From Flagellimonas marinaquae (GTDB lineage: Bacteria; Bacteroidota; Bacteroidia; Flavobacteriales; Flavobacteriaceae): a DNA stretch of 64,000 bases. The stretch's first letter is position 1; each line of letters opens with the position of its first letter. This document shows, one piece after another, positions 22,821-38,213 of this stretch. Made by a program: the position numbers and the translations under genes. The notes beneath the pieces are model-generated. The model searched no databases. It was not told where the DNA came from and saw nothing but the letters and a program-made list of their open reading frames with translations. The stretch lies in the NCBI RefSeq assembly GCF_023716465.1, contig NZ_CP092415.1, positions 2,767,501 through 2,831,500 on the forward strand, in the 5' to 3' direction.

Positions 22821-25800
22821 TTAATGGTTAAATACAGCAGGTATTAGCGTTATAGAATAGCTGTACTTTTTGGGTTTTATTTTATATTCATCATGTACCT
22901 CTGCTCCCCACGAATTATCGCCGCCAACGCCCATTTGCAAATAGTCTATATTCCACTGCAGGTTTTCTCCCAACATAATGTCCGCTCCATGTTTTTTGGT
23001 TACTGGCACCAAACCTGATGCCGATGCTGCACCGTCTGTATTGGAATCAAAATCAAGTTCTTTCATCCCAAAAGGCCAAACACTGCAATTTAGGAGGGTA
23101 TCACCAACTACTTTTAAGGATAGTGTATTTGCACGCAGTTCCATCCACCTTACTGAAGTTTTATTGCCCGTTTCTTGGGGCCTTGGATAGCGGTGAAATT
23201 GTTTAGTCGTATTTCCAGAGTATTTTCCAAGTTTAAGGCCCGTTTGCCTATCCCAATACCCTTCTTCAGGGCCTTTTCCGTACCAATTGACCCTATTAAA
23301 TGTCCTGGGCAAGGTTAGGTAAAGACCCAATCTTGGAATATGGGGCAACCCCTTCTTTTTGGGCTCAAAACGGTAGGTGAGTTGTAAGTTCCCGTTGTTC
23401 ATGAGCTTATAGCGAATCTCTACTTCAGCCTTTTTTTTAGGCAAAGAATATTGAACCGTGTAGGCCACATGATCATTGATTTGCTTAGGCTCCTCTATTA
23501 GCACAGCAGTATATCCATAACTGGCATCTTGCCAGAATCTTGCCCATTTATCCATTCCATTGCCCAGGTCATTGTCCGTTGGTGGTCGCCAAAAGTTTGG
23601 TCGTATAGGCATTTCGGTAATGGTTTGTCCCTGAAACTTCCAAGAAATAATATCGCCGTTTTCTCTATCTAATTGTAGAGAAACAACATTGTTGGTTATT
23701 TCAATGTTTTTTTCCGAGGTAGCTACGGTAAATATGGCATCAGAACCGGTTTTGGGTATGGTGGTTTTTCCGTTTTGCAATACAAATTGATCCCAACCAA
23801 TTTCAAAGCCTTTGTCCAATAATTCCGTTGGCGTATCCTGTAACAGGCTAACTTCTAAAAAATACTCTACTCCTTGTTGCCAATTTTCAAGTAATTGCTT
23901 TACCTCAATCTTTTCTTTGCCTTGTGGAAGAACGTTTATTTTCTTATGGATTTCTTTAATGATGTTTCCATCTGCCAATAGCCGTATCCGGAATGTTTTG
24001 TCTGAAAAATCCGTAAAAAAGTTTTTATTGGTTACCTCTAGGATGCCTCTTCCCAAATAATTGAACTGTACCGGTTCATAGACTTTTTTTACCTCAGTTA
24101 GATGAGGGTGTGGATTACGATATGGATCTACTAATCCATTATTCAAAAAATTACCATCTGTGGGTAAATCTGGATGGTAATCGTGACCATAGGCTAAATA
24201 GGGGTTGCCATTTTTGTCCTTATATTCCAAGGCTTGATCCACCCAGTCCCAAATATAACCTCCCTGTAGGCTGGGATATGCCTCTATTATATCCCAATAG
24301 TCTTGTAGGTTCCCCACGGAGTTTCCCATGGCATGGGCGTATTCTATCATTATTGCTGGTTTGTCCGTACTGGATTCTCCATGCTCTATTAGGTATTTTG
24401 GCTTTGGGTACATAGGGCAATAAATGTCGGTATAGTCCCCTTTTTGGGCCGGCTCGTACTGTACAATACGGTTGTCTTCCCTATTTTTGAACCATTGGTA
24501 GGCTGTTTTGAATATACTGCCGTGACCTGCCTCGTTACCCAAGGACCAAGAATAGATAGATGGATGGTTACGGTCTCTGTAATACATCCGTTCTATCCTG
24601 GCCATATGTGCTGGTAACCAACTCTTTTCGTTCCCTATTTGGGTGTTATCATGAATTGCCAATGGATGACTCTCTATATTGGCCTCATCAACAACATACA
24701 ATCCATACCGATCACAAAGTTCTAACCAGTAGGGATCGTTGGGATAATGAGCACTTCTTACGGCATTGATATTATTTTGCTTCATCAATTTAATATCCTG
24801 TTCCATACTTTCTTTAGAAACCACATGCCCCGTAAATGGGTCGGTCTCGTGTCTATTAACACCTTTTATCTGTAGGGGCGCTCCGTTGAACAATACTTGA
24901 GCGTCTTTTATTTCTACCCGCTTAAACCCTATTTTGGTGGTAATATATTCATTGTTATTAGGGTTTATATCATCACTTAATTTAATTTTGAGCTGATATA
25001 GGGCAGGATTTTCCGCAGACCATTTTTGTACGTTTTTTATGTTTTCGGCAAAGGTTACGGGTACGGTACGCCCTTTGGGGATTTCAATAGTTTTGTTGAG
25101 TTCTAACACTACCTTTTCCTGGTTCCGTACCACAATAGACAAGTTTCTTAGCGCGTTTTTATCCAAAGTGTTCCTTAACCATAAAGTATCTTTAAGAATA
25201 CCATTTGTATAAGAGTCGTCCAAATTAGTATAGGAATAATGATCTGCTATGTGGACCTTTGGCCTGCTATAGAGATAAACGCCGCGCTCGATTCCACTCA
25301 TTCGCAACATGTCTTGACTTTCTAAATAACTGGCATCGCTCCAGCGGAACAATTGTAGTGCGATTAGATTTTTTCCCTTGGAAACATAATTAGAGATGTT
25401 GAATTCCGCAGGGGTCTTACTACCTTGGGAATACCCTACATATTTTCCGTTTATATAAACATACATGGCAGATTTTGCGGCTTCAAAATGCAATATCAAT
25501 TCTTCCGACAACATGTCTTCGGTTAAGACTACCTCTTTTCTATAACTACCTACAGGATTATAATCCGTAGGGATGTTGGGCCATTCGGTATCGAATGGGT
25601 AACGTTCATCCAAATAAATTGGATGGTCATATCCTTGTACTTCCCAATTACCAGGAACGGAAATCGTTTCCCACTTACGATCATCAAAAGAGTTGTGATG
25701 AAAAGTAAGTGGTCTTTTCCTTGGATCTTTCACAAAATGAAACCTCCACTTTCCATTTAAATTCAAAAAACGTCTGGAGTCTTCCTTTTTTTGAACGAAT

Positions 25801-25964
25801 TGGGATTCAAAAGCAAAAAAATGGGCCCTTGGAGGCAATTTGTTCTCCTCAAAAACAGTGTGGTCAAAATGGTTCTTTTGCGCAGGAATCGTTGGCAATT
25901 CGTTTGGAACACACCCCCAAAATCCTATAGCCGTAATCGTGAAGAGGATTTTTTTAAAATTCAT
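22821..25964 (-). CDS. GH2 beta-galactosidase, exported
   Basis: A 1047-residue glycoside hydrolase family 2 enzyme of the LacZ type. I chose the ATG at 25964, 14 bases after the upstream stop and directly before a lipoprotein-like signal (GFWGC, Cys18). A longer reading frame to 26027 would overlap the upstream gene. Order: GH2 sugar-binding domain (about 60-240), immunoglobulin-like linker, TIM barrel (about 355-630) with acid/base E478 in LGNEAGHG and nucleophile E541 in [12 protein letters not shown], then a further beta domain and the Bgal small chain with [12 protein letters not shown]. It removes terminal beta-galactose. In this operon the likely target is Gal-beta-O-hydroxylysine (inference). 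Last gene of a three-gene leftward operon. Confidence 0.92.
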
Positions 25965-25978
25965 CAAATTAAATAAGT

Positions 25979-36646: not shown

Positions 36647-36662
36647 TTAAAAAGAATAAGAC

Positions 36663-38213
36663 ATGAAAAATATAGTACAAATGTTTGTCGCAAGCATGTT
36701 CATGTTTGCAATACTCTCCTGTGATGATGATGAATTTTTGGAGCAACAGTCTCCGGACCAATTAACGTCTTCATCGTTTTGGAGAAATGTAGAAGATGCT
36801 GAATCGGGGCTGGTGGCTGCCTACTCAGAACTGGAATCAAGAAGTAACTTTTGGGATGGATGGCAAGAAGGAAGACCTGTAGTGGAGTATTTTCGTTCGG
36901 ATTACGCCTTACCAGGTCCGGATGCATCTAATTATGCCCATTGGATGTCTATCTTCAATTTTAATTATACCAATGGCCATACTTTTTTAAATGTACTTTG
37001 GACCACCAACTATAAAGGACTCAATTTTGCAAATCAGGTAATATCCAAAGTGGGTCAAATGACACCCGAACAAATTTCAGAAGCGGATAAGAACAGGATT
37101 ATTGCCGAGGCCAAATTTTTGAGAGGGTACTATCATTTCAAATTACTTAGTCTGTACGAGCAGATTATTGTAAGGATGGAGGAGCTCAGTCCGGATAACC
37201 TGGATAGTCCATTGTCTACCCGTCCAGAGGCATGGCAAGTAATTTTGCAAGATTTCCAAGAAGCGGCATCCAATTTGCCGGAAACGCGTACCGATGCAGA
37301 TACGGGACGGGCCACCAAAGGCACGGCATTGGCCTATTTGGGTAAGGCATATCTATATAAAGCCGGAGATGCATCGTCCGCAGAGGGCACAGATATGGAT
37401 AATGCTGTCGCAGCACTGGAACAAGTGGTGGAAAGCGGAGTTTATGATTTGTTTCCGGATTTTGTTGGCAATTTCAATGGCGAGAACGAAAACAATCAAG
37501 AAGCCGTTTTTGAACTTCAATTTAAGAGTGGCGATGCTACTTCGTGGAACGCTAACCGACTACATGCGTTTATTGGTGACTGGTGCATTGGTGGATGGGG
37601 AGGTATCGAGGCCTCCTACGACTTGGTCGACCTTATGAAGAGCGAGGGGATGATTGCTTCCAACGGTTTGTACGATAACCGATTGTACGGAACCCTTTAT
37701 TTTAAAGATGATTATTACAATGATACAGAAACCAATGCAATGCAAGGATTTACATGGGATGTTCTTGTATCCGATACTTACGGCAGCCCAGACGCAAAAG
37801 ATGGCAGTGCATACTTTAGGAAATGGTTGCCCAATTATGTTTGGGACAACGGTTATATTGGAATCAATTTAACTTTAATGCGCTATGCGGATGTACTATT
37901 GATGTATGCCGAAGCACTGAACGAGACCGGTAGCACTGCTTTGGCCATACCAATAATAAATGAAATACGGGAAGTCCATGGTTTAATGCCCCCAACCACC
38001 GCTTCAACACAGGAAGAAGTGAGGGAACAGATTATACACGAACGTATTATGGAGCTTACCTTGGAGTCAACACGATTTTTTGATCTAAGGCGCTGGGGCA
38101 TGTTAGATCAGGCTATGCAAGCGGCCGGCAGATCTGGATTTAGTGCAGCGGAACATTCTTATTTCCCTGTCCCTCTATCCGAAATTCAAGCCAATCCAAT
38201 GGTAGGAGAATAA
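36663..38213 (+). CDS. RagB/SusD family substrate-binding lipoprotein
   Basis: A 516-residue surface lipoprotein with lipobox ILSC (Cys20) followed by acidic residues, as in surface-exposed Bacteroidota lipoproteins. Canonical SusD features are present: LEQQSPDQLTSSSFW near the start, AEAKFLRGYYHFKLLSLYEQ, ADVLLMYAEALNETG, and the C-terminal IIHERIMELTLESTRFFDLRRWG. The protein ends YFPVPLSEIQANP, the usual SusD ending. It acts with the SusC encoded just upstream. A clear terminator follows, so no enzyme genes lie downstream in this operon; the enzymes are on the divergent side. Confidence 0.95.
   Translation: MKNIVQMFVASMFMFAILSCDDDEFLEQQSPDQLTSSSFWRNVEDAESGLVAAYSELESRSNFWDGWQEGRPVVEYFRSDYALPGPDASNYAHWMSIFNFNYTNGHTFLNVLWTTNYKGLNFANQVISKVGQMTPEQISEADKNRIIAEAKFLRGYYHFKLLSLYEQIIVRMEELSPDNLDSPLSTRPEAWQVILQDFQEAASNLPETRTDADTGRATKGTALAYLGKAYLYKAGDASSAEGTDMDNAVAALEQVVESGVYDLFPDFVGNFNGENENNQEAVFELQFKSGDATSWNANRLHAFIGDWCIGGWGGIEASYDLVDLMKSEGMIASNGLYDNRLYGTLYFKDDYYNDTETNAMQGFTWDVLVSDTYGSPDAKDGSAYFRKWLPNYVWDNGYIGINLTLMRYADVLLMYAEALNETGSTALAIPIINEIREVHGLMPPTTASTQEEVREQIIHERIMELTLESTRFFDLRRWGMLDQAMQAAGRSGFSAAEHSYFPVPLSEIQANPMVGE

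Follow-up and report, generated by a model that had tools for sequence, protein, structure and literature searches.

A probable Sus-type locus for collagen-type glycosylated hydroxylysine in Flagellimonas marinaquae

Few animal proteins are as abundant as collagen, whose hallmark glycan is glucosyl-galactosyl-hydroxylysine (Glc-Gal-Hyl); descriptions of collagen use by microbes have so far dealt with collagenases and hydroxyproline. A Colwellia collagen cluster from a marine bone metagenome (PMC7883544) is centred on an M9 collagenase and includes a 4-hydroxyproline epimerase, D-hydroxyproline dehydrogenase, ketoglutarate-semialdehyde dehydrogenase, pyrroline reductase and prolyl peptidases; in that paper, “hydroxylysine” occurs 0 times in the main text, and galactosidases are named for bone glycoproteins generally, none being named in the cluster. 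Here we describe a locus at positions 22821 to 38213 of a stretch of 64,000 nucleotides (the window; NZ_CP092415.1, 2,767,501 to 2,831,500) from Flagellimonas marinaquae, whose genome comprises 3.78 Mb in two contigs. We believe that it is very probably a Sus-type system for using glycosylated 5-hydroxylysine, Glc-alpha-1,2-Gal-beta-O-Hyl, most likely taken up as collagen glycopeptides. Several relatives of the locus have hydroxyproline and peptidase genes like those of the Colwellia cluster; unlike it, the window has no M9 collagenase among its 28 proteins scanned with Pfam.

The locus consists of two divergent operons. The leftward one encodes, in order, a GH63-type lipoprotein, a fusion of a kinase, an M23 peptidase and a class-III pyridoxal-phosphate (PLP) lyase, and a GH2 lipoprotein; the other (31309-38213, +) encodes a sigma/FecR switch and a SusC/SusD pair:

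22821..25964, minus strand: GH2 LacZ-type beta-galactosidase, predicted lipoprotein (Pfam, NCBIfam, signal); candidate remover of beta-galactose from Gal-Hyl
25979..29005, minus strand: APH kinase - M23 peptidase - class-III PLP lyase fusion (Pfam, NCBIfam); candidate hydroxylysine kinase / 5-phosphohydroxylysine phospho-lyase
29007..31040, minus strand: GH63-type (YgjK-like) alpha-glucosidase lipoprotein (Pfam, structure matches); candidate remover of alpha-1,2-glucose from Glc-Gal-Hyl
31041..31308, no strand: divergent intergenic region separating the two operons
31309..31869, plus strand: ECF sigma factor, Bacteroidota type (TIGR02985, 135.5 against a cut-off of 126.4)
31985..33115, plus strand: FecR-type anti-sigma regulator (Pfam)
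33200..36646, plus strand: SusC/RagA TonB-dependent transporter (TIGR04056, 846.5 against a cut-off of 368.25)
36663..38213, plus strand: SusD/RagB ligand-binding lipoprotein (PF07980, 125.8 against a cut-off of 23.1)

An earlier note, made from the letters of this DNA alone, had read the same leftward gene order and the same divergent switch and uptake pair; the open reading frames are where it placed them and the profiles confirm the families. SusC and SusD stand as a pair with scores above the cut-offs, which identifies a Sus-type locus. The GH63 and fusion genes are 1 base apart. The GH2 frame was listed as 22821-26027(-) with a GTG start, but its likely true start is Met22 (22821-25964), which gives a lipoprotein-like signal and lies 14 bases from the fusion stop.

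The pathway would run as follows. SusC/SusD would carry the ligand into the periplasm; the YgjK-like GH63 lipoprotein would remove glucose and the GH2 lipoprotein (a GH42 enzyme in one genus) would remove galactose. Hydroxylysine would then enter the cytosol, where the fusion kinase would make 5-phosphohydroxylysine and the fusion PLP lyase would eliminate phosphate and ammonia to yield 2-aminoadipate semialdehyde (AASA) or piperidine-6-carboxylate. L-piperidine-6-carboxylate dehydrogenase, encoded elsewhere in the genome, would make 2-aminoadipate, and in three related loci proteins of the 2-oxoadipate decarboxylase family and proteins like D-2-hydroxyglutarate dehydrogenase would continue the chain. 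The earlier note had proposed the same succession of glucosidase, galactosidase, kinase and lyase, and gene context and sequence support it; the substrates, the flow and the origin of the ligand are our reading of families, gene order, conservation, motif residues and linkage, all of which are observed. As to compartments, the GH63 and GH2 proteins start with lipoprotein-like signals and the fusion has no signal peptide by inspection, so the sugars are expected to be removed outside the cytosol, and the kinase and lyase to work inside it; a loose lipobox pattern is found in 46/59 GH63 relatives, 52/53 GH2 relatives and 4/103 fusion relatives.

Conserved linkage carries most of this argument. 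Related fusion loci were taken as the best 80 of 285 matching stretches, some of them truncated at contig ends; open reading frames of at least 90 amino acids were called mechanically and took their labels from BLAST matches to references in loci L070, L047, L053, L012 and L068 and in the window, so the labels are not independent annotations. GH63 occurs in 53/80 loci and GH2 in 49/80; the former lies at most two genes upstream of the fusion in 52/80, the latter at most two genes downstream in 49/80, and both flank it in 45/80. Relatives of SusC (26-97% identical) and of SusD are found in 35/80 loci each, and regulators of three kinds vary around the GH63/fusion/GH2 core. Other neighbours are an aldose epimerase, an SSF transporter and GalK (15/80 each), GalT (11/80), pyrroline-2-carboxylate reductase and trans-3-hydroxyproline dehydratase (15/80 each) and 4-hydroxyproline epimerase (9/80); of the 27/80 loci without GH63, eight still have hydroxyproline, galactose or GH2 genes. 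The earlier note had called for a search for such co-occurrence beside SusC/SusD and had made its reading depend on conserved linkage in related genomes; the linkage proved strong, extending to hydroxyproline, galactose and piperidine-6-carboxylate genes.

The same association is seen at the level of whole genomes. The family was sampled by 199 genomes, almost one for each genus; the fusion was found in 46 of them and GH63 in 18, while the 4-hydroxyproline epimerase query matched 118 (in G127 through a 34% relative only) and that for the reductase 28. GH63 and the fusion occur together in 15 of the 18 GH63 genomes and lie within about 222 bp of each other in 14 of these 15; in G005 (a 41% relative) they are 13 kb apart, and G192, with a fusion fragment adjoining GH63 at a contig end (L090), is a 16th case. 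The fusion and the epimerase lie within 20 kb in 19 of the 40 genomes having both (0.47 expected from genome length), and the fusion and the reductase in 8/16 (0.18 expected), with genes on different contigs scored as far apart; these figures are generous, since genera were treated as independent despite shared ancestry. As a control, the window's glutamate dehydrogenase gene was near the fusion in 0/12 genomes, its own genome excluded (Fisher p 0.002 against 19/40). In a phylum sample of 392 genomes, the fusion query matched 41 (two in the lyase part only) and GH63 was found in 11.

The GH63-type protein scores 235 bits with the Pfam MGH1-like GH model, 43 bits with Glyco_hydro_63 and 37 bits with YgjK_N, there is no GH65 family among its Pfam matches, and fold and profile together identify it as a YgjK-like GH63. 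Its closest solved structures are those of E. coli YgjK, about 30-32% identical, with mannosylglycerate hydrolase ranking behind. The family named in the earlier note stands, with YgjK serving better as its yardstick than the note's glucosidase I. Residues D455, E648 and D337 (D501, E727 and D324 of YgjK) are invariant in 50 sequences, and we take D501 and E727 to be the catalytic Asp and Glu; Cys26 in the lipoprotein-like signal is likewise invariant in 50 aligned relatives. One YgjK structure, PDB 3w7w, has Glc-alpha-1,2-Gal, the collagen disaccharide, in the crystal according to its PDB title. The similarity makes the GH63-type protein a candidate alpha-1,2-glucosidase for Glc-Gal-Hyl. Glycosynthase work reportedly lies behind that ligand structure; passages of a YgjK paper (PMC8537180) give no activity on Glc-Gal.

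The GH2 assignment of the earlier note is borne out by a complete LacZ-type set of five GH2/LacZ Pfam domains above cut-off, although the NCBIfam Bga2A equivalog model falls just short (995.8 against a cut-off of 999). In one genus (loci L118-L121) a GH42 beta-galactosidase takes its place (Pfam in L119; the others by BLAST to L119). This replacement bears on a reading that we hold to be very unlikely, in which GH63, GH2 and SusC/SusD would act on another glycan with Glc-alpha-1,2-Gal and the kinase/lyase next to them would serve a different purpose. That disaccharide is also present in some lipopolysaccharide cores, and some GH63 relatives have no kinase or lyase recognised near them: a 60% relative stands alone in G198 (L089), and relatives from other families (L124-L126, 33-40%) have none adjoining. 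However, a neighbour with a different job would not be expected between GH63 and GH2 in 45/80 loci, nor would a non-homologous beta-galactosidase be expected to replace GH2 beside a fusion lacking its M23 domain; moreover, G081 (L091) keeps GH63 and GH2 together with both hydroxyproline routes though the fusion is missing.

Two further loci, L122 and L123, combine GH63, SusC/SusD and GH2 with a separate APH kinase and a LysA-type decarboxylase (354.9 against a cut-off of 297.9 in L122; by BLAST in L123), with no recognised lyase; perhaps this set is another way of using hydroxylysine.

The fusion comprises, by Pfam, an APH kinase domain (residues 28-244), Peptidase_M23 (438-535) and Aminotran_3 (603-1000), and it matches NCBIfam PRK06148 (1155.9 against a cut-off of 1128), a subfamily in which this architecture is already recorded, under the name hypothetical protein. 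The kinase and lyase domains of the earlier note are thus upheld, while its two-part architecture is not, the M23 domain having been missed. All 91/91 aligned copies retain H201, D203, N208, D225 and D228 of the kinase part (PF01636), H439, D443, H493, H529 and H531 (metal and catalytic residues) of the M23 part, and the PLP lysine K848 of the lyase part (PF00202); those of the kinase part belong to the catalytic-loop and metal-site motifs of APH kinases, those of the M23 part to the signature HxxxD, H, HxH. The kinase part (residues 1-402) has no solved relative at E <= 0.001. In viral contigs searched with the fusion alignment, 55 stretches matched a pattern and 0 were confirmed.

We tentatively suggest, as a possibility that we ourselves rather doubt, that the fusion is a trifunctional hydroxylysine-harvesting enzyme, in which M23 would be an active cytosolic peptidase that cuts short collagen peptides with Gly or Hyl and passes the freed hydroxylysine on to the kinase and lyase of its own chain. 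Such an enzyme, with GH63, GH2/GH42 and SusC/SusD, would make up the first system in bacteria devoted to collagen's glycosylated hydroxylysine, one that reaches 2-oxoglutarate in some genera. In the four loci L118-L121, from GH63 genomes of one genus (g112) of the same family, the kinase-lyase, which the fusion query had missed at its cut-off, has 765-768 residues and aligns to about residues 1-338 (36%) and 574-1006 (51%) of the fusion, with M23 cleanly absent; since these loci keep GH63, kinase and lyase, M23 looks like an accessory rather than a needed link.

Some recurrent neighbours of the fusion are recorded here as observations. A protein of about 1090 residues directly follows it in L036, L053, L056, L072, L079 and L087 (in L053 it has PD40 repeats as well as an amidohydrolase domain). 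A protein of 366-367 residues lies beside it in L095, L097, L098, L099, L101, L103 and L106 (grouped by length only; DUF4407 in L095), with an M56-type protein near in L095 and a penicillinase-repressor-type protein near in L099. In Arenibacter (L018, L023, L029, L030, L039, L054, L061, L066) the fusion has a recurring neighbourhood of its own, in which genes for glycosidases, galactose or hydroxyproline are absent; both kinds of fusion are present in A. arenosicollis (L014, L018). An FG-GAP-repeat protein comes after SusD in L014, L047 and L050.

Three of the loci without M23 (L118, L119 and L121) also include an L-piperidine-6-carboxylate dehydrogenase (825-827 bits, above the cut-off of 730), an HGLS-family 2-oxoadipate decarboxylase (by Pfam in L118 and L119, by BLAST in L121) and a protein nearest to the D-2-hydroxyglutarate dehydrogenase YdiJ (570-582 against a cut-off of 1350, too low for an equivalog of that model). 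Piperidine-6-carboxylate is what AASA, the expected product from 5-phosphohydroxylysine, becomes on ring closure; 2-oxoadipate arises after transamination of 2-aminoadipate, and HglS yields D-2-hydroxyglutarate. By family membership, these clusters would hold nearly the whole chain to 2-oxoglutarate. HGLS genes are also found at L080, L088 and L090, directly after SusD in the last two.

These neighbours matter for the question of whether the fusion instead degrades ethanolamine via phosphoethanolamine to acetaldehyde, which we regard as extremely improbable. The nearest solved structures of the lyase domain (top match 6tor_A, 49% identity) are the human ethanolamine-phosphate phospho-lyase (449.6 bits) and an Arthrobacter phospholyase (324.5 bits), the best of them acting on phosphoethanolamine, and the window's genome encodes an ExaC acetaldehyde dehydrogenase (905.4 against a cut-off of 900); so that genome alone does not decide the substrate. 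But the neighbours in the three loci are enzymes for the product of 5-phosphohydroxylysine elimination, and an ethanolamine pathway needs none of them, which argues strongly against ethanolamine; nor does the linkage to hydroxyproline genes make sense in such a pathway. In a tree of 96 fusion copies, 55 lie beside GH63, 18 beside only hydroxyproline, galactose or GH2 genes (with a distant GH63 in one) and 23 beside none of these. The three contexts are interleaved, with no single branch per kind (23 label changes against a minimum of 2); yet they are more clustered than chance (shuffled mean 36.3, 0/200 shuffles as low), as expected of related genomes, and for some of the unlinked copies, which cluster in this way, a second substrate is possible.

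Hydroxyproline genes are the other informative neighbours. The locus of Tenacibaculum piscium (L070) reads, in order, an S37 peptidase, pyrroline-2-carboxylate reductase (NF004793, 389 against a cut-off of 322), a trans-3-hydroxyproline dehydratase-like protein, GH63, a 170-residue frame and the fusion; then two M24 peptidases (nearest to Xaa-Pro dipeptidase and aminopeptidase), a D-amino-acid dehydrogenase-like protein, a 90-residue frame and 4-hydroxyproline epimerase (582 against 376); and finally an aldehyde dehydrogenase nearest to 2,5-dioxovalerate dehydrogenase and a DapA-family protein. Of the dehydratase-like proteins, 16/16 have the Cys-Thr pair by which trans-3-hydroxyproline dehydratase is defined (PMC4364671), and 18/19 epimerases have Cys-Cys, the first motif not being found in the remaining one. 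The fusion also lies beside 4-hydroxyproline genes in eight loci where GH63 is absent (L094-L101), which were chosen because the fusion and the epimerase were already known to be near each other. In the window's genome the epimerase (587 against 376) is at 0.74 Mb, with aldehyde dehydrogenase and DapA-family genes, and L-piperidine-6-carboxylate dehydrogenase (820.9 against 730) is at 1.32 Mb.

It is conceivable, though unlikely, that the pathway is right up to hydroxylysine and the source is not animal collagen: it might be bacterial hydroxylysine lipids, or hydroxylated glycoproteins of plants, algae or viruses. Hydroxylysine lipids are described in the Bacteroidota species Pseudopedobacter saltans (PMC4484230), plant cell walls also contain hydroxyproline (PMC9309405), and no M9 collagenase was matched in the window's genome by a search that matched no control genome either and is thus uninformative. 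However, lipids leave GH63, GH2/GH42 and SusC/SusD unexplained, and plant glycoproteins leave the hydroxylysine route unexplained. We presume collagen to be the most economical source of the ligand. To our knowledge, it is the sole common material to carry 3-hydroxyproline, 4-hydroxyproline and Glc-Gal-Hyl together (in part from PMC9309405 and PMC8626586). Collagen contains both trans-3- and trans-4-hydroxyproline (PMC9309405, PMC4364671).

Several findings weigh against a dedicated system for glycosylated hydroxylysine. At the fusion loci, 19/80 are without GH63, GH2, galactose or hydroxyproline genes nearby (one of them, L080, has HGLS about 7 kb away); 31 of the 46 fusion genomes lack GH63 at the cut-off used, and in 21/40 genomes the fusion and the epimerase are not within 20 kb. 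The window's own locus has no hydroxyproline gene, its genome has no pyrroline-2-carboxylate reductase at the cut-off used, and no HGLS was found in it by a search that matched 2/14 control genomes. In L070, the trans-3-hydroxyproline dehydratase-like protein is below its cut-off (NF045511, 362.9 against 540), as are the D-amino-acid dehydrogenase, the aldehyde dehydrogenase, the DapA-family protein and the two Xaa-Pro peptidases with their best NCBIfam models.

Outside the locus, the window contains at 435-17325 a second uptake/catabolic locus with a ROK domain, a sugar transporter, an SASA esterase, two DUF4185 proteins, a GntR/UTRA regulator, a SusC relative (by BLAST) and a phosphodiesterase family protein. 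A transglutaminase-like protein (38395-39030) adjoins SusD and is 90% identical in L009, which is syntenic with the window (fusion 77% identical) and is recorded as Algicola sp., a name that seems at odds with its Flavobacteriaceae-like genome. At 39529-51888 the window encodes a 4119-residue protein that combines SprB repeats, an IgGFc-binding and a DUF11 domain with a type IX secretion C-terminus; a 694-residue protein with IgGFc-binding and DUF11 domains (51995-54079) comes next.

The comparison with known systems can be summarised as follows. In common with the Sus-type polysaccharide loci of Bacteroidota, the locus has SusC/SusD, a sigma/FecR switch and lipoprotein glycosidases; unlike them, it would lead to an amino acid, and its operon includes a kinase and a PLP lyase. 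The two proposed steps on hydroxylysine would be catalysed by the same two enzyme families as the human hydroxylysine kinase HYKK and 5-phosphohydroxylysine phospho-lyase PHYKPL, reportedly identified by Veiga-da-Cunha in 2012; these are separate proteins in animals, in contrast to the single chain with an intervening M23 domain. A bacterial fusion reportedly served as a clue in the 2012 hydroxylysine-kinase paper; a 2025 review (PMC12138971) cites that paper near a passage on gene fusions as functional clues. The proposed reaction on Glc-Gal-Hyl is that of animal PGGHG (EC 3.2.1.107), which belongs to GH65 instead of GH63 (PMC8626586, PMC11012932). E. coli YgjK shares the catalytic residues of the GH63-type protein; we know of no tie between YgjK and collagen. 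Like the earlier note, which knew of no Sus locus for this ligand, we found no bacterial hydroxylysine pathway and no Sus locus for glycosylated hydroxylysine among the papers listed from the open-licence literature. Sus-type loci and catabolic islands for collagen residues are already known; as far as those papers go, the target is new, and so is the combination of GH63, GH2 or GH42, kinase-lyase and piperidine-6-carboxylate genes. If the reading is correct, the collagen disaccharide has a candidate alpha-1,2-glucosidase from a family other than GH65, the PRK06148 fusion gains a function, whose hydroxylysine-to-AASA step could be tested with one purified protein, and there is a Sus-type system that targets a glyco-amino acid.

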